The notes below the pieces were generated by a model, which was not told where the DNA came from, searched no databases, and was given only the letters and a program-made list of their open reading frames with translations. Made by a program: the position numbers and the translations under genes. Below, one piece after another: positions 9,039 to 20,898 of a stretch of DNA of 36,288 nucleotides. Where the stretch lies: NCBI GenBank assembly GCA_024401215.1, contig JAKSLL010000031.1:1-36288 (forward strand), read 5' to 3'. Each line of letters begins with the position of its first letter. Position 1 is the first letter of the stretch. Source of the stretch: Bacteroidaceae bacterium. GTDB taxonomy: Bacteria; Bacteroidota; Bacteroidia; Bacteroidales; Bacteroidaceae.

Positions 9039-9111
9039 GGTGCCATAGCTCAGTTGGTAGAGCATCGGACTGAAAATCCGTGTGTCCCCGGTTCGAATCC
9101 TGGTGGTACCA
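9039..9111 (+). tRNA. tRNA-Phe (GAA), copy 1
   Basis: A 73-nt cloverleaf. The acceptor GGTGCCA pairs with TGGTACC with A as discriminator, the D-arm is AGCTCAGTTGGTAGAGC, the anticodon loop is CTGAAAA with anticodon GAA, and the T-loop is GGTTCGAATCC. CCA is not encoded. Confidence 0.95.
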
Positions 9112-9138
9112 CTCACTTTAGAAATTGTCAAAAACGTT

Positions 9139-9211
9139 GGTGCCATAGCTCAGTTGGTAGAGCATCGGACTGAAAATCCGTGTGTCCCCGGTTCGAATCC
9201 TGGTGGTACCA
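9139..9211 (+). tRNA. tRNA-Phe (GAA), copy 2
   Basis: Identical in sequence to the first copy and separated from it by a 27-bp spacer. Both are probably made from the one upstream promoter and processed from a single transcript that ends at the following hairpin. Confidence 0.95.
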
Positions 9212-9212
9212 C

Positions 9213-10051: not shown

Positions 10052-10465
10052 TCACATCAACTCCTCAAAAGGGAAATCTCGCTTCATCCTGTATGCAAGT
10101 CCTGTCATCACAGCCAACAATTCTCCTTTGTTATTCGTCACTTTGATATCACAATAAGGCAGTTTATGATGATCCAGCAATTCAACGCATTCTGCTATGA
10201 TGCGTTCACCAAGCTGTCCTGACTTAAGGAATGTAATTGTGTTTGATATACCCAGAGTGAGTATGCCATGGCAGTTGGCAACACCTGCAAAGGCAAGGTC
10301 TGCAAGAGTGTACATCACACCGCCCTGACACACATTCGCACCATTAAGATGGCGCTCTTCTACCACCAACTCTGCTCGCGCATACCCCTCACGTATTTCC
10401 GTCAGCTGCGCACCAATAGAGTTAGCAAAACGGTCGTTTGAATTTAATGTTTCTAAAAGTGTCAC
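10052..10465 (-). CDS. paaI: PaaI-family acyl-CoA thioesterase
   Basis: A 137-residue single hot-dog domain protein. PaaI enzymes hydrolyse aryl-acetyl-CoA thioesters and so relieve CoA trapping. The active-site helix reads CQGGVMYTLADLAFA (about residues 47-61): the GG and the catalytic Asp of LAD are present, while the His that precedes GG in E. coli PaaI is Gln here. The gene lies downstream of two paaK genes, but a strong terminator and its own promoter separate it from them, so it is a neighbouring and probably functionally linked unit rather than the last gene of that operon. Confidence 0.85.
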   Translation of the reverse strand: MTLLETLNSNDRFANSIGAQLTEIREGYARAELVVEERHLNGANVCQGGVMYTLADLAFAGVANCHGILTLGISNTITFLKSGQLGERIIAECVELLDHHKLPYCDIKVTNNKGELLAVMTGLAYRMKRDFPFEELM

Positions 10466-10560: not shown

Positions 10561-10592
10561 CAAAATTACAAAGCTTTTAAGTAATAACCAAA
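10561..10592 (-). promoter_or_regulatory. paaI-PHP promoter
   Basis: On the minus strand TTTG (10592-10589), a 20-bp spacer and TAATTTTG (10568-10561) give a complete Bacteroidota promoter. Predicted transcription starts about 90 nt before the paaI ATG. The remainder of the gap 10466-10736 holds no gene. Confidence 0.7.
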
Positions 10593-10736: not shown

Positions 10737-10786
10737 AAAAGGAAACTGTGCAATCTGCAAAAACACAAATTGCACAGTTTCCTTTT
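10737..10786 (-). terminator. Terminator of the paaK-aminotransferase unit
   Basis: An 18-bp perfect stem (10737-10754 with 10769-10786) with a 14-nt loop. On the minus strand it ends in TTTTGTTGTTTT. It lies 22 bp after the aminotransferase stop. Confidence 0.88.
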
Positions 10787-10807: not shown

Positions 10808-12118
10808 TCAGTGGTTCGCCTTGAAAGCTTCTATCCTCTCCTTAAACATCGCCTCCTGCTCCTTCTTGAAGAAGGAAGTGCAGATACGAACTCCTTGCTC
10901 ATTTGAGCCCATAGTGTCGAGCGGATACACAGCTATGCCATAGTACATAAGTTCGCGTGTAAGCTGCAAGTCATTCATTCCCGGATACTGTACTGTGAAA
11001 TAGAAGCCGTCAGCAAGCGGAGCCCCCATGTCGTTGTCATACACGAGATAGAAGCCATTAGACAGAAGCACTTCTTTCATAAACTTTGCACGGCGGCCAT
11101 ACTCCTTCACATCGTCAAGGAAGTTGTACTTACCCTCGCATGCAGCCTCCATAAGTGCCGCCATAGCATGCTGAACACTATGAGTTGTACCACTTGACAG
11201 CGTGTACATAAGTCTGTTGCAGAAGAAGTTGCCAAACTCACCCACCCCAAACTTGCTTGCCAATGGCTCATACACACGGTGGTAAAGCTTATTACTTATG
11301 CAAGTCACACCTATACGCTGACCAGCATAAGAGAAAGCCTTAGAGCCAGACACCCACAGCACATAATTGTCTGTGTATTTAGCCACAGTAGCCTGATATG
11401 GCGCCTCAAAAGGATGAGAAAGGTCACGGCGGAAGTCCATAGCGAAATAAGCCAAGTCTTCAAGCACTATAACATCATACTTATCCGCCAACTGTCCGAT
11501 GCCCTTCAACTCATCTTCCGTGAAACACACCCATGACGGATTGTTAGGATTTGAATACACAATGCTGTTTATGTTGCCTGCTGAGAGAATCTCATCCAGC
11601 TTAGCGATAAGAGCGTCACCACGATAGTCATGAATGTCGAGACCTACATGTTTCAGACCTATCACGTCGCATTGCGTTGTCTGCACAGGAAATCCTGGCT
11701 GGATGAGCAGCACTGTATCTTTCTTTGTGCCAGCGCAAGCATGGTAGATAGCTGTGAATGTGGCGAAAGTGCCTTGCATGCTGCCTGTTGTTGGGATGCA
11801 GCACAGAGGGTCAATGTCAACACCGATGAACGCCTTAACGAACTGTGACGAAGCATTTTTTATTCGAGGTATTCCTCCATTAGGAGGGTAGATTGTTGCA
11901 CAGCCCTCTTCAAGCGCCTTCTGCTCTGCCTTGAGAGCGATTTCTGATGGCTGCAGTCCAGGGACTCCCATTTCAAGATGTATGACTGGCATTCCTGCTT
12001 TCTCCTCTATCTGCTTTGAAAGAGCCTGAATGTCCCTGATTGTCGCTTGCGAAAAATCACCGAGCCCCATGGACTCGATGATTTCTGTTATAATATTTCT
12101 ATTATCCATTTCAAGCAT
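10808..12118 (-). CDS. PLP-dependent class I/II aminotransferase (probable aromatic amino acid)
   Basis: The protein is 436 residues, fold type I. Visible features: the N-terminal substrate segment HLEMGVPGLQP, YPPNGGIPRIKNA, the cofactor region IVYSNPNNPSWVCF with the conserved NPNNP, the Asp of VLEDLAYFAMD, and the Schiff-base Lys in VSGSKAFSYAGQRIGV. It follows paaK by 5 bp, so it is translationally close to it. Next to indolepyruvate oxidoreductase and two aryl-CoA ligases, the expected job is interconversion of aryl-pyruvate with Phe, Tyr or Trp; that specificity is inferred from context only. Starts at 12118 or 12109 are both plausible; AAGG precedes the first. Confidence 0.82.
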   Translation of the reverse strand: MLEMDNRNIITEIIESMGLGDFSQATIRDIQALSKQIEEKAGMPVIHLEMGVPGLQPSEIALKAEQKALEEGCATIYPPNGGIPRIKNASSQFVKAFIGVDIDPLCCIPTTGSMQGTFATFTAIYHACAGTKKDTVLLIQPGFPVQTTQCDVIGLKHVGLDIHDYRGDALIAKLDEILSAGNINSIVYSNPNNPSWVCFTEDELKGIGQLADKYDVIVLEDLAYFAMDFRRDLSHPFEAPYQATVAKYTDNYVLWVSGSKAFSYAGQRIGVTCISNKLYHRVYEPLASKFGVGEFGNFFCNRLMYTLSSGTTHSVQHAMAALMEAACEGKYNFLDDVKEYGRRAKFMKEVLLSNGFYLVYDNDMGAPLADGFYFTVQYPGMNDLQLTRELMYYGIAVYPLDTMGSNEQGVRICTSFFKKEQEAMFKERIEAFKANH

Positions 12119-12123
12119 ACACC

Positions 12124-13425
12124 TTAAAACTTGCGTTTGTCATTTACGTGCTTAGCTTTGCCCATTGAACGCTGGATAGTGTTAGGAGGCAAAATATGGA
12201 TGTTTGGCTTGATGCCTATCACACTCACGATACGATCGTAGAGAGGCTTGATATAAGGCATCTGCTTTGATGGATTTGGTGAGAAATACTCCTCACGAAG
12301 TTCAACATCAAGATCAAACATATCCTCATTGTCCTTGCGGTCAACAGTAATGAAATACTGTGGAGAGTAAACAGGGAATTCGGTAAGGATTGCCTCAATT
12401 GTAGAAGGGAACACATTCACACCACGAATGATGAGCATGTCATCAGAGCGGCCGAGGATGCGGTCCATTCTCACTGCCGTACGTCCGCACTTACATGGCT
12501 CGTATATGAGGCGTGTGAGGTCACGAGTACGATAACGGAGAATTGGCATCGCCTCTTTCTTCAGAGATGTGAATACAAGTTCGCCGAACTCTCCCGGAGC
12601 ACATGGCTCAAGAGTGTCTGGGTTGATAATCTCTGGATAGAAAAGATCTTCCCAAAGGTGAGTTCCATTCTGGCATTCACACTCACCGCCAACACCCGGT
12701 CCACACATCTCTGTGAGTCCGTAGATATCTATTGCTTTGATGTGGAGCTTCTCTTCAAGTTCCTTGCGCATGCCCTCTGTCCAAGGTTCAGCACCGAAGA
12801 AACCGACACGAAGCTTCATATCCTCAATGTTCACCTTATCGCTCTTATCTATGCACTCTGCAAGATGAAGAGCGTAGGAAGGTGTACATGCAAGAACAGT
12901 AGAGCCGAAGTCCTTCATAAGCATAATCTGCTTTTCTGAATTTCCTGCTGATGTAGGAAGCTGAACAGCTCCACGCATAGCAGCTGCGTCGTGAGCGCCA
13001 AGACCGCCAGTGAAGAGTCCATAGCCGTATGACACCTGAACAGTATCGCCAGGACCTACATCTCCTGCTGCCATGACACGAGCTGCACCCTCAGCCCACA
13101 TTTCAAGGTCGTTCTCTGTATAGGTGTCAACAACAGGCTTGCCTGTTGTGCCAGAAGAAGCATGGATGCGACGAACTTCAGAATGAAGAACAGCCTGCAA
13201 ACCAAAAGGATATTCATCACGAAGGTCATGCTTTGTTGTGAAAGGCAGACGGTGGATGTCCTCAATGCTCTTGATGTCTTCAGGCTTTACACCCATCTTG
13301 TCCATCTTCTTCCTATAGAATGGAACTTTCTCATAACATGTTTTTACTGTCTTAATAAGACGCTCTGTCTGGAGTTTAGTCATGTCCTCGCGAGACATAC
13401 ACTCCATTTCGGGATTGTGAATCAT
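12124..13425 (-). CDS. paaK: Phenylacetate-CoA ligase, copy 2
   Basis: A 433-residue AMP-forming aryl-CoA ligase. ATP-binding motif SSGTTGKPVVDTY, adenylate motif IYGLTEMCGPGVGGEC, hinge segments RYRTRDLTRLIYE and RMDRILGRSDDMLIIRG, and the C-terminal catalytic Lys in QRSMGKAKHV are all present. Cys-rich CKCGRT precedes the hinge. It converts aryl acetate, CoA and ATP to aryl-acetyl-CoA, or generates ATP in reverse. It is clearly diverged from the other paaK in the cluster and therefore may have a different aryl preference. It ends 5 bp before the aminotransferase. Confidence 0.92.
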   Translation of the reverse strand: MIHNPEMECMSREDMTKLQTERLIKTVKTCYEKVPFYRKKMDKMGVKPEDIKSIEDIHRLPFTTKHDLRDEYPFGLQAVLHSEVRRIHASSGTTGKPVVDTYTENDLEMWAEGAARVMAAGDVGPGDTVQVSYGYGLFTGGLGAHDAAAMRGAVQLPTSAGNSEKQIMLMKDFGSTVLACTPSYALHLAECIDKSDKVNIEDMKLRVGFFGAEPWTEGMRKELEEKLHIKAIDIYGLTEMCGPGVGGECECQNGTHLWEDLFYPEIINPDTLEPCAPGEFGELVFTSLKKEAMPILRYRTRDLTRLIYEPCKCGRTAVRMDRILGRSDDMLIIRGVNVFPSTIEAILTEFPVYSPQYFITVDRKDNEDMFDLDVELREEYFSPNPSKQMPYIKPLYDRIVSVIGIKPNIHILPPNTIQRSMGKAKHVNDKRKF

Positions 13426-13531
13426 TTTTTGTCTAAGGTATTAGCGCCCTCTCTCATCTCCTGCACTTTTGGTACAAGAAACCATCCGTGGGCATTAGGT
13501 TGAAAAAATTGTTTTATTGTAAGATACTAAA

Positions 13532-13565
13532 GAACATGCAGCAGCTTTTCTTGCCGCACATGTTC
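13532..13565 (-). terminator. Hairpin overlapping the ACT-gene stop codon
   Basis: On the minus strand GAACATG (13565-13559) pairs with CATGTTC (13538-13532), with GC-rich inner pairs. The following T-run is short (TTTAG), so it may be a weak terminator or attenuator between the ACT gene and paaK copy 2. Confidence 0.4.
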
Positions 13566-13986
13566 ATGCCTTGAAATCCATCTCTGTCAAGAAAGGCATC
13601 TTCTTTATAGAGATGATTTCTTTAGCTTTCTCTGCAGGGTCAGTACGTAGAACGAGCACACCCTTTCCTTTCCACACAAATGAATACATATATAATATGC
13701 TCACATCTGCTGACGAAAGTTCGCTGACAGCCTTCGCTGCACATCCCGGAGTATCATCGATGCTAAGCGCAATGACATCCGAAAGCTGAACATTGATGCC
13801 TGCTTCACGAAGCATAAGATAAGCCTGTGTTGGCTGGTCACAAAGCACACGGAAAATTCCATATTCCTTAGTGTCAGATACCATCGAAGCTATAATCTGT
13901 ATGCCACCCTTGCTGAGCAAGTCGAGAACTTTGATGAGAGTGCCACCCTTGTTCTCTATGAATATTGATAATTGTTTGATAGTCAT
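13564..13986 (-). CDS. Tandem ACT-domain protein, aryl-pathway associated
   Basis: The protein is 140 residues and made of two ACT domains. The first (about 1-68) begins MTIKQLSIFIENKGGTL and continues through ILDLL-like helices; the second (about 69-140) begins VIALSIDDTPGCAAKAVSELS. ACT domains bind small ligands, usually amino acids. There is no catalytic domain, so it is likely an allosteric partner or sensor. Its place between two paaK genes suggests control of aryl-CoA ligase activity by the aromatic amino acid; this is inference. The ATG at 13986 is chosen because the ACT strand starts there. Confidence 0.85.
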   Translation of the reverse strand: MTIKQLSIFIENKGGTLIKVLDLLSKGGIQIIASMVSDTKEYGIFRVLCDQPTQAYLMLREAGINVQLSDVIALSIDDTPGCAAKAVSELSSADVSILYMYSFVWKGKGVLVLRTDPAEKAKEIISIKKMPFLTEMDFKA

Positions 13987-14075
13987 AAATGTCCACCCCA
14001 CTCTTCCTGTAAAGGATAGTAATAGATACTATAATTTAAGAATAGTAAGTAATCAATAAAATTATTATATTTATT

Positions 14076-14260
14076 CAACTTTCGCAAAGTTTCAACTTGC
14101 TCGTTTTGGGGAGTTAAAGTGGAGTTAAAGAGGAGTTATCGCTTCGCTCGGAGTTAAAGGGACATTTGTCTTGTCGGACATTTGTCACTTTAACTACCTT
14201 TTAACTTCTCTTTAACTACCCTTTAACTCCACAACAAGTGGAGCTTGCGAAACTTGTATT
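14076..14260. repeat. Intergenic palindromic repeat family (GTTAAAGGG type), copy B
   Basis: A complex inverted repeat: the left arm carries GGAGTTAAAG units (three copies) and the right arm the mirrored CTTTAACTACC units, around two GACATTTGTC copies. Bases 14214-14244 match 8086-8116 with one mismatch in 31. It occupies the gap between paaK copy 1 and the ACT gene and may uncouple their expression. No gene was seen in 13987-14358. Confidence 0.7.
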
Positions 14261-14358
14261 GATTATAATAATATTTTTGACCAGATACTTATCGCCCCGA
14301 GGGTGAAAGGGTTCTTTAGTTCGAAAAATAAAGATACATTAAGTTGTTTTGGCAACTT

Positions 14359-15690
14359 TTATTGATACACCTTTCTCTTATCTACGACTCTGACAGCCTT
14401 GCCTTCGCTCACAGGCAGAGAGCCTTTAGCAACAAGCTTAACATGTGGAGTTAGAAGTATCTCGTCTTTTAGAGCTCGTGTCACATCCTTCTGCAGTTTC
14501 TGCAGACGAGGGAAATCATCTGTGAATAGTTCTTCCAGTTCAACCTCCACTGTCATGTTGTCGTTGTCGTCATCGGTAGTCAGAGTTATGAGGTAGTTAT
14601 TGGCAAGTTCAGGGAACTGCATAAGAATCTTCTCAATCTGTATTGGGAAGATGTTCACACCTCTAAGAACCATCATATCATCAGAGCGGCCACGCATACG
14701 GTCAAGACGCACATGATTGCGACCGCAAGGGCATGAACGTCCAAGCACACGGGTGAGGTCGCGAGTGCGGTAGCGGAGAAGAGGCATAGCCTCACGACAG
14801 AGCGTTGTAAGCACAAGCTCGCCTATCTCGCCGTCAGCAACAGGTTCAAGAGTCTCTGGATTGACAATCTCCACAATGTAGTAATCCTCCCAGAAATGAA
14901 GACCGTTCTGCTCCTGACACTCAAATCCCACGCCTGGGCCACACATCTCACTCATACCGAATGAGTTATATGCCTTTACGCCCATCATATCCTCTATGCG
15001 CTTGCGTTGCTCCTCCGAATGCGGTTCGGCACCTATGGCAAGCACTCTGAGCTTTGTATCCCTACGAGGGTCAACGCCCTGCTCCTGCATAACTTCATAA
15101 AGACGAGTGACATAAGATGGGACAGCATGTACTGCTGTTGTTCCGAAGTCTGTCATGAACTTAATCTGACGCAGCGAATTGCCCGCAGCGGCAGGAATGG
15201 TAAGCATGCCTAAGCGCTCTGCTCCATACTGAAATCCAAGTCCACCAGTAAACATACCGTAGCCGCTTGAATTCTGGAACACATCACTTGGACGAAGACC
15301 TACCATCCACAAATTGCGAGCCACCTGATTCGCCCACTCGTCAAGGTCATTTTGTGTGTGAAGGATAACAGTAGGATTGCCCGTAGTGCCTGATGAAGAA
15401 TGCAGACGAACGCAATCACGGAGAGGCGCACTGGCAATGCCAAATGGATAAGTGTCACGCAAATCCTGCTTTGTAGTAAAAGGAATCTTACGTACATCAT
15501 CGAGTGTCTTGATATCCTCAGGCTTGAGCCCTATCTCTTCAAAACGCTTCTTATAAAAAGGTGAATTCATGCAATGCTTGACTGTTGCCTGCAACCTCTC
15601 AAGCTGCAAAGCCTCAATCTGCTCACGAGTCATTGTCTCTTTATCCTCGTTGAAATACTGGCATGAATCCTCTGGAATAAACTTTTTCAT
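14359..15690 (-). CDS. paaK: Phenylacetate-CoA ligase, copy 1
   Basis: A 443-residue AMP-forming aryl-CoA ligase. It has the ATP motif HSSSGTTGNPTVILHT, the SFGMSEMCGPGVGFEC adenylation motif, RYRTRDLTRVLGRSCPCGRN, RLDRMRGRSDDMMVLRG, and a C-terminal Lys in VSEGKAVRVVDKRK. The ATG at 15690 (MKKFIPED) is preferred to a TTG six bases upstream. It begins 8 bp after iorB and is evidently in the same operon, so ligase and oxidoreductase probably share the aryl-acetyl-CoA intermediate. Confidence 0.92.
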   Translation of the reverse strand: MKKFIPEDSCQYFNEDKETMTREQIEALQLERLQATVKHCMNSPFYKKRFEEIGLKPEDIKTLDDVRKIPFTTKQDLRDTYPFGIASAPLRDCVRLHSSSGTTGNPTVILHTQNDLDEWANQVARNLWMVGLRPSDVFQNSSGYGMFTGGLGFQYGAERLGMLTIPAAAGNSLRQIKFMTDFGTTAVHAVPSYVTRLYEVMQEQGVDPRRDTKLRVLAIGAEPHSEEQRKRIEDMMGVKAYNSFGMSEMCGPGVGFECQEQNGLHFWEDYYIVEIVNPETLEPVADGEIGELVLTTLCREAMPLLRYRTRDLTRVLGRSCPCGRNHVRLDRMRGRSDDMMVLRGVNIFPIQIEKILMQFPELANNYLITLTTDDDNDNMTVEVELEELFTDDFPRLQKLQKDVTRALKDEILLTPHVKLVAKGSLPVSEGKAVRVVDKRKVYQ

Positions 15691-15697
15691 ATACAAA

Positions 15698-16276
15698 TTA
15701 TTTCTTGCTTGCCTTTACGCCCTCATCAAAAGCTTTCAGATTAGCCTCAACGATTGCCTCACCTTTGCGCGCAAAGACAGTTGCGATAGCACTTCTCAAC
15801 TGTTCCACGCTGAGAATCTCAATAAACGGAGCTGCCATGCCTAAAAGCACCATATTAGCACCTCGAGCATTTCCTGCATCCTTAGCAACATCCTCAATGT
15901 CAAGCTTTACCACTGATGGAAGAGCATCAAGCTCAGCATTAAGCTCTGCCTCATCTGGATAATTTGGGATATTAACAAAAGGCTTGCTTGATGTCACAAT
16001 AGTGCCTGTCTTTGCGAGGTAAGGCAGATAACGCAAAGCCTCCATTGGCTCCATAGAGATGACAACATCTGTGCCACCAAGAGCAATGAGGTCGCTATAG
16101 ATTGGGTCGGTAGACAGACGAAGGTTTGACTGCACATCGCCACCACGCTGGCTCATTCCGTGCACTTCCGCCTGCTTCAAGTTCAAACCTGCCTTTGTTG
16201 CTGCTTCACCTATGATTGTTGCGATAGAGAGTATGCCTTGACCACCCACACCGCAGAGTATTATATCTTTTTTCAT
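15698..16276 (-). CDS. iorB: Indolepyruvate:ferredoxin oxidoreductase, beta subunit
   Basis: The protein is 192 residues, the gamma-type domain of the 2-oxoacid:ferredoxin oxidoreductase family. Conserved segments are CGVGGQGILS (about 8-17), EVHGMSQRGGDVQSNLRLS and SMEPMEALRYLPYL. With IorA it interconverts aryl-pyruvate and aryl-acetyl-CoA plus CO2, using ferredoxin. Its ATG overlaps the iorA stop (ATGA), the usual sign of translational coupling of subunits. Confidence 0.93.
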   Translation of the reverse strand: MKKDIILCGVGGQGILSIATIIGEAATKAGLNLKQAEVHGMSQRGGDVQSNLRLSTDPIYSDLIALGGTDVVISMEPMEALRYLPYLAKTGTIVTSSKPFVNIPNYPDEAELNAELDALPSVVKLDIEDVAKDAGNARGANMVLLGMAAPFIEILSVEQLRSAIATVFARKGEAIVEANLKAFDEGVKASKK

Positions 16277-17856
16277 TTCTGTGCCTCCTTTGCTTTCTTT
16301 GCTTCACGAGCGTGGCGTGCTGCTGTCTGGATGCACTCACGGCGTGGAATGATTACTGAAACTCCGTTGTAGTTGAGTTCCTCACGAATAATGTTTGTAA
16401 TCTCTGGCATATTCTTTGGAAGCGGAACAACCACACGAACATGCTCTGGTTCAACACCAAGACCTATACATATTGCCTCAAACTTGTTTGTGCCTGCACT
16501 ATCCTGACCGCCAGTCATACCTGTTGTCAGGTTGTCAGAGATTACAACGACGATATTACTGTTGTCATTCACAGCATCCAGAAGGCCTGTCATGCCTGAG
16601 TGGGTGAATGTAGAGTCACCTATCACAGCGACAGATGGGAACAAGCCAGCATCGGCAGCACCCTTAGCCATAGTTATTGACGCACCCATGTCAACGCATG
16701 ATGACAAAGCCTTGAATGGTGGAAGAGCTCCAAGTGTGTAGCATCCTATATCGCCAAAGATACGATAGTCAGGATATTCAGCAAGCACCTGATTGAGTGC
16801 TGTATATACATCTCTGTGGCCACATCCCTGGCAGAGCTGCGGAGGACGAGCGGCAAGATTCTTTGCAGCGTCGTAAACTGGTCCTGCAGACTTACCGAGA
16901 GCCACTGCCACACAGTCAGGAGTGAGTTCGCCTGTGCGTGGAAGATCGCCAGTGAGGCGTCCCTTGACAGGATATCCTGTGCCAAAGAGCTTCTTCACAT
17001 CCTCCTCAACAACAGGCTGCCCATCCTCAACCACGAGAATAGCGTCATTCTCCTCAGCAAGCTGTTTGATGGCTTTCTCTGGAAGCGGATATTGTGACAC
17101 CTTGAGGATATTTGTCTCGTCGCCAACAGCCTCCTTCACATAATTATAACCTATACCGCAGGCGATGATGCCGAGTTTGCCGCCACCCTTCTCAACCTTA
17201 TTGAAGACAGACTTCTCTGCGCTCTCCTCCATCAATGGCTGCTTCTCGAGAAGTTCAGCATAACGTTTTCTTGCAATGCCAGGAAGGAGCACCCAGCGCT
17301 CGGTGCTGACATTGAGAGCGTTCTCAGCTTTCTGCTCGCTGATTTCTACAGCAGCACGGCTGTGTGCCAATCGTGTCACAACGCGAAGAAGCACAGGCTC
17401 CTTGATTGCCTCTGAATACTCGAATGCCACCGCCATCATATCGTAAGCCTCCTGCTGGTTGCTTGGCTCGAATATAGGAATCATGGCGAATTTGCCATAG
17501 AAACGGCTGTCTTGCTCATTCTGTGAAGAATGCATAGAAGGGTCATCAGCGGCAAGCACAACAAGTCCGCCATTCACACCTGTTATTGCACTGTTCACAA
17601 AAGCATCAGCACACACATTCATACCTACATGCTTCATGCAGACAAGCGCACGCTTGCCGGCAAAAGACATGCCAAGAGCAGCCTCCATGGCTGTCTTCTC
17701 ATTTGTACACCAACGGCTACGCACATGCTTAGCGTTGGTTTGAATAAACTCTGTAATTTCGGTTGAAGGCGTACCTGGGTAAGCATAAACGCCTGAAAGA
17801 CCTGCGTTTATTGCACCAAGAGCTATTGCCTCGTCACCAAGTAATAATTTCTTCAT
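16273..17856 (-). CDS. iorA: Indolepyruvate:ferredoxin oxidoreductase, alpha subunit (no ferredoxin domain)
   Basis: The protein is 527 residues. The N-terminal pyrimidine-binding domain holds YAYPGTPSTEITEF and ALVCMKHVGMNVCADAF. After a linker domain comes the thiamine-diphosphate domain with CQGCGHRDVY, GDIGCYTLGALPPF and GDSTFTHSGMTGLLDAVNDN (GDS...N cofactor motif). Archaeal IorA proteins continue with a C-terminal two-[4Fe-4S] ferredoxin module; this one stops at IIPRRECIQTAARHAREAKK, right where that module would begin, and overlaps iorB. Electron transfer must therefore use the remaining cysteines or a separate ferredoxin. It carries no sign of a frameshift. It is the first of the tightly packed iorAB-paaK group. 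Confidence 0.92.
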   Translation of the reverse strand: MKKLLLGDEAIALGAINAGLSGVYAYPGTPSTEITEFIQTNAKHVRSRWCTNEKTAMEAALGMSFAGKRALVCMKHVGMNVCADAFVNSAITGVNGGLVVLAADDPSMHSSQNEQDSRFYGKFAMIPIFEPSNQQEAYDMMAVAFEYSEAIKEPVLLRVVTRLAHSRAAVEISEQKAENALNVSTERWVLLPGIARKRYAELLEKQPLMEESAEKSVFNKVEKGGGKLGIIACGIGYNYVKEAVGDETNILKVSQYPLPEKAIKQLAEENDAILVVEDGQPVVEEDVKKLFGTGYPVKGRLTGDLPRTGELTPDCVAVALGKSAGPVYDAAKNLAARPPQLCQGCGHRDVYTALNQVLAEYPDYRIFGDIGCYTLGALPPFKALSSCVDMGASITMAKGAADAGLFPSVAVIGDSTFTHSGMTGLLDAVNDNSNIVVVISDNLTTGMTGGQDSAGTNKFEAICIGLGVEPEHVRVVVPLPKNMPEITNIIREELNYNGVSVIIPRRECIQTAARHAREAKKAKEAQK

Positions 17857-17895
17857 CTATTTCTTGAAGTTATTTTGATTGTTATTTATTGATTG

Positions 17896-17903
17896 CAAAG
17901 ATA
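17896..17903 (-). promoter_or_regulatory. Possible internal promoter before iorA
   Basis: CAAAGATA reads TATCTTTG on the minus strand, a good -7 box about 40 bp before the iorA ATG. No -33 TTTG at the usual spacing. Confidence 0.35.
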
Positions 17904-17918
17904 AAGATTATTTATGAA

Positions 17919-19445
17919 TTACTTCTTATAGCATTCAAAAATTTTATCCACATATTCGGCATTCATCTTCTTGCTGATAAGACTTACTACAGCAACAACA
18001 ACAAATCCGCCAAGCATAGCTATCGCGCCGCAATTTATAGGATTTATTGGATTGCCGAGCATCATATTAACAACCGTAAGACCTACGCCCCACACAAAAC
18101 ATGCCCACACGCTGCTTGTTGTCACGCCCTTCCAGTAAAGGCCGAGCATGAATGGAGCGAGGAATGCCCCTGCCAATGCACCCCATGATATTCCCATGAG
18201 CTGGGCTATGAATGTTGGCGGGTTCAAAGCTATCAACAGAGAGATTGCAATAAAGAATACGATGAGAAGTCGCATGATGATGACTTTCCTCTTTTCTATG
18301 TTGCCCTTCACCGTGTCGTCAAGTTCACCTTCCTTAACCTCATCTCCGCTTGCTTTCTTCTCACGATAGATAAGGTCAAGAGTCATGGTTGATGATGACG
18401 TGAGCACCAAACTGGCAAGGGTACTCATCGAAGCAGAAAGCACCAGCAGCACAACTAAGCCAATAAGCGCGTCATCGAGAGTGACAAGCATTGACGGTAT
18501 GATGCTGTCGAATGCCAGCCTACCATCAGGCAGAGTGGCAGGAGTGTCGAACAGACGACCGAAACCACCAAGGAAATAACATCCGCCAGCTACGATAAGA
18601 GCAAATACAGTAGATATTATTGTGCCTCGCTTGATTGCTGACTCATCTGTTATGCTGTAGAACTTGCCCACCATCTGAGGAAGGCCCCAAGTACCAAGCG
18701 AAGTAAGTATCACCACACCAAGAAGGTTAAGCGGATCAGGTCCGAACAACTCCGCAAACATACCGTTCTGAGCGGGATTGTCATCGGACGGCAAAGCAGC
18801 AAGCTTGTCAACAGCAGCTGTCAATCCGCCTTGTGAGTTAAGTACAGCGGCGATGACCATAACAATGCCGAAAAGCATTATTATTCCCTGAATGAAATCG
18901 TTTATAGCTGTTGCCTTGTAACCTCCAAGAATCACATAAACAGCCGTAAGCACAGCCATGATTATCACGCAGTATTCGTATGGTATGCCAAAGCCCATCT
19001 CAAAAAGCGTGCTTATTCCCTTATACACACCTGCTGTGTAAGGAATAAGGAATATGAATGCAATGATGCTTGCCACAACACGCAATCCCTGGCTTCTGAA
19101 TCTCGTGCCGAAAAAGTCTGGCATCGTGCGGCTGTTGATGTGCTGTGTCATCTGCTTTGTCTTCTTTCCCAGCACAAGCCACGCAAAGAGCGAGCCTATC
19201 ACAGCGTTGCCGATACCTATCCATGTGCTTGAAATACCATATTTCCATCCAAACTGACCTGCGTAGCCTACAAATACTACCGCAGAAAAATAACTTGTTC
19301 CATAAGCGAAAGCTGTAAGCCAGCCGCCCACCGAACGACCGCCAAGCACAAAGCCATCCACCGAATTGGCTTGCTTGCGAGAGTATATTCCCACTCCAAT
19401 CATTATGATGAGGAATATAACTGTAAGAATTATCTTGATTACCAT
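17919..19445 (-). CDS. Sodium:solute symporter (SSS family)
   Basis: A 508-residue inner-membrane protein with about 13 hydrophobic helices, typical for the SSS family. Family features include FVLGGRSVGGWLTAFAYGTSYFSAVVFVGYAGQFG near the N-terminus, NSRTMPDFFGTRF, and GGYKATAINDFIQG in the middle. It uses the sodium gradient to import a small organic solute. It lies between a porin and iorA, 62 bp before iorA, so import of an aryl acid or aromatic amino acid is the best contextual guess; the sequence alone does not define the substrate, and pantothenate- or proline-type transport is also possible. Confidence 0.85.
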   Translation of the reverse strand: MVIKIILTVIFLIIMIGVGIYSRKQANSVDGFVLGGRSVGGWLTAFAYGTSYFSAVVFVGYAGQFGWKYGISSTWIGIGNAVIGSLFAWLVLGKKTKQMTQHINSRTMPDFFGTRFRSQGLRVVASIIAFIFLIPYTAGVYKGISTLFEMGFGIPYEYCVIIMAVLTAVYVILGGYKATAINDFIQGIIMLFGIVMVIAAVLNSQGGLTAAVDKLAALPSDDNPAQNGMFAELFGPDPLNLLGVVILTSLGTWGLPQMVGKFYSITDESAIKRGTIISTVFALIVAGGCYFLGGFGRLFDTPATLPDGRLAFDSIIPSMLVTLDDALIGLVVLLVLSASMSTLASLVLTSSSTMTLDLIYREKKASGDEVKEGELDDTVKGNIEKRKVIIMRLLIVFFIAISLLIALNPPTFIAQLMGISWGALAGAFLAPFMLGLYWKGVTTSSVWACFVWGVGLTVVNMMLGNPINPINCGAIAMLGGFVVVAVVSLISKKMNAEYVDKIFECYKK

Positions 19446-19505
19446 TCTGTTTTTACTATAAAAAAGATTTGTATGAACAGTTGCTCAAAAAAACATGAGC
19501 ACCCC

Positions 19506-20675
19506 TTAATTAAATCTCACCTGCATCTGACACATTATACCATGATTAGCACCATGATGGAACTCTCCTCCTGCCACCCATGCGTTCTTGTAAATATACT
19601 GCACCTGAAAACGGCATTTGTCGTAGAACCAGTATTGGAATCCGCCAACAGCCTTGTGCTGATCCATGTGGAGAGACTTATTGAAATTGAAGAAGTCGTA
19701 ACTTGCCACAAAATCGAGATTTGGAGCAAGATTCACGCTGCCAGTCATATAAGCACCTCTACTTATTGCCTTGCCATCCTTGCCTTCAAGGTATTCGCCA
19801 TGCATATTGAATGGTTTGGATTTGTAGTCAAAACCTACTGAATAACGGTTACGCTCATAATTCTGCCCTATCTGGATTTCAGGGTTGTAAACCGATGCTG
19901 CAACAGCATTACCACGACCAAGCTGTCCTGTTGCAACTATATTAAGCCCCTTTGCCGGACGCATCTCCAGTCTTCCAATGATATCCTTCTGATTGTTTCT
20001 GTCTTTTCTGTTTATGCCTTGTCCATTCATGAGCTGAAGTTCATAACGGAGGAACTTGTCATTCGTCTCACCATACAACGACATACCGAGGTCACGACCA
20101 TATTGCACTCCAAACAGAGGGTCGCTGCCACATCCTGTGAGATAGGTGACACCTTCTGAATACACATCTATTGTTTCCATAGATGTTGGCGAAAGAGGAT
20201 TCTCAAAAGTGCAACAATTCTTAAACTGACCGAGTCTGACAGTAAGAGCATTATTGTTTGTCACACGGTAATCTGTATAATACTCTTGAACCACACTTGA
20301 GAAATCATGCATGAAAAGGAAAGACCATCGGTCTGTTATCTGAGCATTAGCCCAAAACAGCACACGCTTAATCTCGAAGCTGTTCACATTCTCGCCATCT
20401 TTATTATTATAGAAATATCCTCCCTGCGCATATCCATGAAGTTTGATACGCTGGTCTAAGCCCTTAAGCAGATCATCCATAGCGCCATTGCCAGATTGAA
20501 GGCAATTAGGCACACTCAAGCAATTCGGGCTTTCTTCATTCGCGCCATCGACAGTCACCGACGCATCAGTAGGCAGACTCTCATTGGCTAACTCCTGCGA
20601 CATTTCTGCTCTGGCTTGCAACGGCAAAAGCCCAGCAAGTACGGCACAAACTGCCGCAATCTTCTTTTTATTCAT
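19506..20675 (-). CDS. Outer-membrane porin, phosphate-selective porin O/P-like
   Basis: The protein is 389 residues with a signal peptide ending near LPLQARA. After an unusual Ser/Asn/Cys-containing spacer (about residues 24-70) the rest is amphipathic beta-strand, beginning RIKLHGYAQGGYFYNN and ending in the C-terminal aromatic signature MCQMQVRFN. OprO/OprP-type features include IKRVLFWANAQITDRWSF and VRLGQFKNCCTFENPLSP. It is the promoter-proximal gene of the aryl-acid cluster, 60 bp before the symporter, so it probably provides the outer-membrane entry for the same anionic substrate. A CC pair and several other cysteines are uncommon for a porin. Confidence 0.8.
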   Translation of the reverse strand: MNKKKIAAVCAVLAGLLPLQARAEMSQELANESLPTDASVTVDGANEESPNCLSVPNCLQSGNGAMDDLLKGLDQRIKLHGYAQGGYFYNNKDGENVNSFEIKRVLFWANAQITDRWSFLFMHDFSSVVQEYYTDYRVTNNNALTVRLGQFKNCCTFENPLSPTSMETIDVYSEGVTYLTGCGSDPLFGVQYGRDLGMSLYGETNDKFLRYELQLMNGQGINRKDRNNQKDIIGRLEMRPAKGLNIVATGQLGRGNAVAASVYNPEIQIGQNYERNRYSVGFDYKSKPFNMHGEYLEGKDGKAISRGAYMTGSVNLAPNLDFVASYDFFNFNKSLHMDQHKAVGGFQYWFYDKCRFQVQYIYKNAWVAGGEFHHGANHGIMCQMQVRFN

Positions 20676-20760: not shown

Positions 20761-20768
20761 CAAATGTA
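20761..20768 (-). promoter_or_regulatory. Possible -7 box upstream of the porin gene
   Basis: CAAATGTA reads TACATTTG on the minus strand, about 86 bp before the porin start. The -33 element is unclear; CAAA repeats occur nearby. Apart from this and the two terminators, the gap 20676-20986 is AT-rich and without a gene. Confidence 0.35.
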
Positions 20769-20898
20769 GTAAAAAAACAAACAAATAGAAATCATCATTC
20801 AAATTAATATCAAAATCATTCTAATATATGACAGCATTATGATTTGAATTAAGCATTTTCGTGTCATTTATGATGAGTAGGTGTCGGTTTTCACCTGA

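Follow-up and report, generated by a model that had tools for sequence, protein, structure and literature searches.

The 36,288-nucleotide contig JAKSLL010000031.1 of a Bacteroidaceae bacterium, which was analysed at its whole length and is called the window here, carries a real and conserved gene module in which a porin and a sodium symporter stand beside enzymes of aryl acid and aromatic amino acid metabolism. The module probably serves the uptake of aryl acids and the reductive synthesis of aromatic amino acids from them, in a rumen-type member of the Bacteroidaceae/Prevotellaceae. As to the substrates, the direction in this strain, the ligand of the ACT protein and the role of PaaI, we infer the following scheme from gene content, protein families, recurrent linkage, leaders and hairpins, all of them read from sequence. 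The porin would admit aryl acids (4-hydroxyphenylacetate, phenylacetate, indoleacetate), and the sodium symporter would carry them into the cell. Two AMP-forming ligases would convert them to aryl-CoA esters, which IorAB, using reduced ferredoxin, would carboxylate to arylpyruvates, and an aminotransferase would turn these into phenylalanine, tyrosine or tryptophan. A tandem ACT protein would sense an aromatic amino acid and restrain the neighbouring ligase, while a PaaI-like thioesterase would recover the CoA of esters that have stalled. One branch of relatives would use attenuation at a leader of tyrosine codons to govern the symporter gene, either by itself or together with those of the ligase and the ACT protein. 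The chemistry has already been proposed; its coupling to uptake and the tyrosine control are new.

The module consists of eight collinear open reading frames (ORFs) on the minus strand, running from 20675 to 10808. In gene order these are the porin (19506..20675, 389 aa, Porin_O_P-like, outer membrane), a symporter of the sodium:solute symporter (SSS) family (17919..19445, 508 aa), iorA (16273..17856, 527 aa) and iorB (15698..16276, 192 aa), the alpha and beta subunits of an arylpyruvate (indolepyruvate) oxidoreductase (IOR), the arylacetate-CoA ligase gene paaK1 (14359..15696, 445 aa), the tandem ACT-domain gene (13564..14001), a second ligase gene, paaK2 (12124..13425, 433 aa), and a class I/II aminotransferase (10808..12118, 436 aa). 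The true start of paaK1 possibly lies a few codons downstream of the annotated one. This set and order, and the family names, are those given by an earlier sequence-only reading, and the strong closing terminator it described is indeed found at 10785-10738 on the minus strand (10738..10785), as an intrinsic terminator with a stem of 20 pairs. Its description of the unit as tightly packed holds for five of the seven junctions. The gaps are 60, 62, -4, 1, 357, 138 and 5 bp in gene order, and the two exceptions are the 357-bp gap between paaK1 and ACT, which houses a repeat, and the 138-bp gap between ACT and paaK2, which contains a terminator-like hairpin (13534..13561, minus strand, found by hairpin search). 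A single unbroken transcript across the unit is not assured, because of this repeat and this hairpin. That reading had also left out the repeat insertion and the PaaI-like thioesterase.

The conservation of the module was followed in a sample of 151 genomes of the family and, for the leaders described below, in 393 genomes of the order. With presence cut-offs of E<=1e-50 for iorA, E<=1e-80 for the symporter and E<=1e-20 for the porin, iorA occurs in 106 of the family genomes, the symporter in 52 and a porin relative in 64. The three recur together across the family beyond chance: iorA is present in 48 of the 52 symporter genomes and in 58 of the 99 others (Fisher 1.0e-5; within-genus permutation p 0.0014). 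A symporter was called linked when an ior, paaK, ACT or aminotransferase gene lay on its strand at a distance of no more than 3.5 kb. By this definition, 22 of the 52 symporter genomes show linkage, in about eight arrangements by our own grouping; in four more the contig of the symporter carries such a gene 5-7 kb away, a ligase on the same strand in G019 and G084 and a gene on the opposite strand in G038 and G124. The search for porin-symporter-iorAB-paaK synteny in relatives, proposed with the sequence-only reading, therefore found it conserved in these 22 genomes, though in the remaining 26 none of these genes is near the symporter in the fetched stretches. The pair is found before iorA, after ACT, between paaK2 and the aminotransferase, and between the aminotransferase and paaK2, and either of its two genes may come first; the symporter is also found alone. 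On the symporter tree the label 'linked' changes 11 times, at least eight of these changes being forced by starred branches. Duplicate rows L167 and L196 were omitted from this tree, G088 was mislabelled 'near' (its stretch was then cut) and G050 was absent; both were later found linked, and the tree was not redone.

A second set, of 80 named loci around iorA, many of them cut by contig ends, contains porin and symporter in 15 loci, PaaI in 26, paaK2 in 61, paaK1 in 45, ACT in 50 and the aminotransferase in 58. Nine of these 80 loci duplicate DNA already present in the family sample, two of the 15 with porin and symporter among them, and the two sets were never summed. A chance neighbourhood, in which a housekeeping porin and symporter happen to lie beside an unrelated ior-paaK cluster, could draw on the 26 unlinked symporter genomes, six of which belong to the window's own genus. 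We regard it as highly improbable, given the arrangements inside the module, the forced changes on the tree and the co-occurrence of symporter and iorA within genera.

The two transport proteins are of uneven clarity. The porin has no Pfam or NCBIfam match at E<=0.001, its score against Porin_O_P (PF07396) being 16.3 bits under a cut-off of 20.9, and a sequence-profile search of the PDB gave it no match. A Porin_O_P match at E<=0.01 is present in 27 of 34 aligned porin relatives, the place of the porin next to the symporter is conserved, and its predicted structure is rich in beta strands (mean pLDDT 81), a model that may be read as a barrel. The symporter exceeds the PF00474 cut-off (184.1 bits against 22.8) and stays under that of TIGR00813 (166.8 against 184); its structure matches are SGLT-type chains and SiaT (5nv9). 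It fails the equivalog cut-offs of PutP (194.7, under 515.5) and PanF (179.6, under 328.05). Plasmid relatives were also tried as a guide to its substrate and were set aside; among the 25 of 294 records listed, all are below 30% identity and the named ones are mostly PutP or PanF.

The enzymes belong to well-defined families. The best NCBIfam model for IorA is TIGR03336, matched over positions 1-545 of 595 with 525 bits, below the cut-off of 650.9, and its thiamine pyrophosphate domains PF01855 and PF02775 are both matched. Cysteines 342, 345, 372 and 508 are invariant in 154 of 154 IorA sequences, the C-terminal ferredoxin motif CxxCxxC occurs in none of the 154 (a set in which duplicates of some genomes are counted), and the window IorA has no ferredoxin Pfam domain. 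This pattern suggests one proximal cluster held by four cysteines, with the ferredoxin as an external partner. IorB is over the cut-offs of PF01558 and NF005324 (302.9 bits against 222 for the latter). Both ligases are over the cut-offs of PF14535 and PF00501, which places them in the AMP-forming family, and both miss the PaaK cut-off of TIGR02155 (646.3), with 477.5 bits for paaK1 and 525.1 for paaK2; the two share 47% identity, and the best PDB match of paaK1 is the phenylacetate-CoA ligase 4r1l, with 671 bits. The ACT protein matches PF19571 (ACT_8) with 182.9 bits against a cut-off of 23.5, as well as PDB 2f06, and its gene adjoins a paaK in 107 of 108 cases, duplicate genomes included. 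The aminotransferase is over the cut-off of PF00155, and its best PDB match is 3g0t. The PaaI-like hotdog thioesterase (10052..10465, minus strand) exceeds the TIGR00369 cut-off with 57.5 bits and stays under that of TIGR02286 (87.9 against 118.9). Its gene here follows the module terminator and has a promoter-like site of its own at 10568; in many relatives it is linked to the module, as the counts of named loci show.

Evidence on direction comes from relatives of the window. Nine of them carry, upstream of module genes, a short ORF with 4-7 consecutive aromatic codons followed by a terminator. In five (G050, G070, G088, G104, G119) this leader precedes paaK1-ACT-symporter, and in four (G006, G034, G068, G117) it precedes the symporter alone. 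The codon run is all tyrosine in eight of the nine, with one phenylalanine among four codons in G104. After the leader ORF there follows a GTGGG-type segment and then a terminator that opens with a complementary CCCAC-type segment. All nine, which represent three genera only, fall in a clade of 15 genomes by symporter, with 56-64% identity to the window symporter. Five others of this clade (G024, G133, G089, G120, G148) have no leader within 280-300 bases upstream, and in the fifteenth (G147) the contig begins within the symporter gene. The general scheme of an attenuator consists of a short ORF with control codons, an alternative pairing and a terminator. The leaders resemble amino acid operon attenuators in having a short ORF with a codon run and then a terminator, and they may act by attenuation; unlike known attenuators, they place tyrosine runs, among these relatives, before an operon of arylacetate ligase, ACT and symporter. 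The symporter and iorA of G119 are separated by a terminator-like hairpin, so that the leader there may cover paaK1-ACT-symporter only.

The same design is found at the canonical operon of phenylalanine and tyrosine synthesis. A covariance model built from the nine leaders and run on the 151 genomes (E<=0.05) gave 25 matches, namely the nine source leaders and 16 further ones. For twelve of these 16, the next gene downstream shares 66-87% identity with the same-genus pheA, and in each of the twelve the leader frame is rich in Phe/Tyr; one more (G019), also a Phe/Tyr leader, is situated where its contig ends. In the order sample, scanned at E<=0.01 with stricter filters through which weak matches were lost, there were five matches, four of them new, and these four are aromatic-rich leaders upstream of aminotransferases 42-62% identical to that of a same-genus pheA operon. 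The same-genus pheA operons inspected (L140-L144) have a YYYFYFYF leader and a GC-rich hairpin in five of five, with a five-T run after the hairpin in two of five, which is apparently a Phe/Tyr attenuator. The symporter and ligase of the leader-bearing branch would then stand behind the same kind of leader as a canonical Phe/Tyr operon. In two further matches (G005, L279; G033, L276) a short frame rich in Ile and a hairpin precede leuA; these are probably branched-chain attenuators of the same design. The match in G040 falls within a leuA-like coding sequence and was taken as spurious. Across eight leader-bearing loci, Rfam at gathering thresholds gave a cobalamin riboswitch, in the fetched stretch of G068 (L244, 15861-16033), and nothing else.

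These leaders bear upon the question of direction, which the sequence-only reading had left open between reductive synthesis and a fermentation of amino acids to aryl acids with ATP. The tyrosine leaders before ligase and symporter, in nine of 15 genomes of one symporter clade, are of the same kind as the pheA leaders, which speaks for uptake and reductive synthesis and against fermentation; no such leader stands in the window. The ATP-yielding alternative is weakened because both ligases are of the AMP-forming family and the Pfam and NCBIfam profiles of the unit proteins reveal neither a kinase nor an ADP-forming synthetase among them. The module might nevertheless run oxidatively, with aromatic amino acids being transaminated, IorAB decarboxylating the products, aryl acids being exported, and the ligases or PaaI freeing CoA. 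Oxidoreductases of this kind catalyse reversible reactions, and PaaI could hydrolyse aryl-CoA. Characterised SSS carriers, as a general feature of the family, are systems of uptake, which speaks against export, as do the AMP-forming ligases and the leaders. According to PMC13285125, AMP-forming ligases typically favour acyl-CoA synthesis; the same source refers to work of 2023 in Cell Host and Microbe in which the IOR of B. thetaiotaomicron acts in the conversion of phenylalanine to phenylacetate. The phenylacetate in cultures of B. fragilis (PMC11304471) agrees with an oxidative route. Against it, not one of the 66 Bacteroidota strains in PMC13290082 made indoleacetate in quantifiable amounts under the conditions used; whether they carry iorAB is not shown in that paper. 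Taken together, the oxidative explanation appears quite unlikely for this module.

Besides the 2023 study, a number of observations weigh against uptake and reductive synthesis under tyrosine control. No tyrosine leader was found in the window, in its own genome or in the searched loci of the window's symporter clade. An aromatic-rich short ORF upstream of the window porin was considered as a leader and rejected, no counterpart being seen in relatives and no match to the model. When folds were computed with the stalled ribosome masked, the antiterminator was clearly favoured in four of the nine leaders, was in a shifted register in one, and the terminator was lowest in four; when the ribosome was placed on the stop codon instead, all nine printed structures showed the terminator hairpin. 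Covariation in the leader structure is small, with two of 13 pairs changed on both sides. A control scan by residue class for leader-like ORFs near module genes gave KRN 13, LIV 11, SCT 6, GAP 4, FYW 4 and DEQ 2, and caught four of the nine tyrosine leaders. Since other residue classes matched as well, the count of leaders alone is insufficient, and the case rests on the tyrosine runs, the shared design and the pheA matches.

The linkage has its own counter-evidence. In the 26 unlinked symporter genomes no ior, paaK, ACT or aminotransferase gene lies nearby in the fetched stretches, where several short contigs may have hidden some linkage; in one of them (G066) a PaaI-like gene adjoins the porin-symporter pair. 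In all six same-genus relatives with the pair, it lies near leuA and a second LeuA-like gene and apart from the module, and two more genes beside it are read as leuC and leuD. The location hints at a possible further role of the pair in supplying branched-chain acids. A different explanation is that the pair imports an amino acid (tyrosine, phenylalanine) or a branched-chain acid or amino acid in place of aryl acids, and that the linkage reflects a shared regulation of amino acid supply and not a single pathway. Along with the leu neighbours, the four genomes where the tyrosine leader heads a symporter to which no ior, paaK, ACT or aminotransferase gene is linked would agree with this, as would the nearest named symporter families, the proline and pantothenate types, although both are under cut-off. 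The strands in the leu neighbourhood differ (L037-L042), however, so no shared operon is evident there; in five genomes a single tyrosine leader heads paaK1, ACT and symporter jointly; and the pair recurs within the module, beyond mere proximity. We judge this explanation to be unlikely.

The supply of aromatic amino acids by the usual route was examined in the same genomes. Prephenate dehydratase is missing in six of the nine tyrosine-leader genomes and in 18 of the 142 others (Fisher 5.4e-4), and, among symporter genomes, in six of nine against three of 43 (2.9e-4), tests that overstate independence because the nine leader genomes come from three genera. The window assembly has no prephenate dehydratase and only a sub-cut-off match to prephenate dehydrogenase; TrpA is present. 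It may be that rumen and hindgut Bacteroidota scavenge aryl acids from their environment as precursors of amino acids, with a system of dedicated outer-membrane porin, sodium symporter, two ligases, IorAB without a ferredoxin domain, ACT protein, aminotransferase and PaaI, and that in one branch attenuators responding to Tyr-tRNA shortage act on ligase and symporter, the whole replacing lost prephenate enzymes. On this wider proposal we are evenly divided. Two points weigh against the reading of uptake and reductive synthesis. The absence of pheA and tyrA from the window genome may be a gap in the draft assembly, because the latter (4.35 Mb, 234 contigs) is 93.55% complete, with 7.04% contamination, and pheA is present in eight of the eight other same-genus genomes sampled. 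The flanks of the pheA operon differ within the genus, and a DNA search of the window genome gave short matches only. A family-wide role of iorA as a stand-in for lost pheA and tyrA was tried and rejected: iorA is present in 14 of the 20 genomes missing both and in 92 of the 131 others, with no enrichment.

Several known systems resemble parts of the module. In Bacteroides, IOR colocalises with an AMP-forming ligase, assays there confirm an arylacetate-CoA ligase, and amino acid biosynthesis is suggested as their role (PMC13285125). The module shares an IOR beside such a ligase with this system; the second ligase, tandem ACT protein, aminotransferase, PaaI and porin-symporter pair, and the tyrosine leaders of relatives, set it apart from that system. 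In the loci retrieved from one genus of our sample (g3), iorAB has one linked ligase (L102, L103, L106, L108) or none (L109). In the rumen, phenylacetate is converted to phenylalanine (PMC7356843, citing Allison 1965) by reductive carboxylation, the same chemistry that would operate here. What is proposed now, unlike in that rumen work, is a set of genes that includes dedicated ones for uptake. The 1965 study reportedly names no genes. In Pseudomonas, PaaL and PaaM serve phenylacetate uptake (PMC3224230), so that the phenylacetyl-CoA catabolon likewise couples transport genes to a phenylacetate-CoA ligase pathway; that catabolon degrades phenylacetate, whereas the module here would build amino acids from it. 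Regarding the leaders, clues to leader-peptide attenuation and a structured 5' element upstream of pheA are described in Flavobacteriaceae (PMC9723704), leader-peptide-like short ORFs in 5' untranslated regions of B. thetaiotaomicron (PMC7366714), and Bacteroid-trp RF01692 is listed in PMC2864571. In the excerpts of open-licence literature found, none ties the porin-symporter pair or a tyrosine leader to iorAB-paaK.

Which way IOR and its ligase run in gut Bacteroidota is an unsettled question in the literature (PMC13285125), and the dedicated uptake genes and tyrosine leaders would provide a genetic handle on this question. If the uptake and reductive synthesis reading is true, these bacteria consume phenylacetate, hydroxyphenylacetate and indoleacetate, from which toluene, p-cresol and skatole are formed (PMC13285125), and members without prephenate enzymes would depend on cross-feeding.

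The repeat in the gap between paaK1 and ACT is a palindromic interspersed element (14044..14289, unstranded) with a very strong predicted hairpin (RNA fold z -8.79). It is one of 40 near-full copies in the genome (40 of 272 candidates scored), the other 39 being 82-98% identical to it, with a core of about 190 bp; it could be a miniature inverted-repeat transposable (MITE) or REP-like element. In relatives the paaK1-ACT gap has a median of 30 bp over 82 pairs, a count in which duplicate genomes are included. The 357-bp gap was considered as a regulatory element specific to the module, which the genome-wide repeat inside it ruled out.

A promoter-like site of Bacteroidota type, TTTC-19-TACATTTG (20761..20791, minus strand), precedes the porin start by about 85 bp and fits nine of ten letters of what we take to be the Bacteroidota consensus; eight such sites occur in 14 kb against 4.3 in simple shuffles, a weak excess. 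The genes for a pfkB kinase and a GH32 enzyme, further upstream of the porin, belong to another unit, which is closed by a terminator-like hairpin of its own (20938-20905). A repeat of about 40 nucleotides stands near both contig ends (52-81 and 36157-36196), with 15 copies listed in the genome, and it may have caused the contig breaks. Beyond the module terminator, the PaaI-like gene is followed by a PHP-domain gene and then, on the opposite strand, by two tandem tRNA-Phe (GAA) genes (plus strand, 9039-9112 and 9139-9212). At Rfam gathering thresholds the module has no RNA match, and these two tRNA genes are the sole matches in the window.

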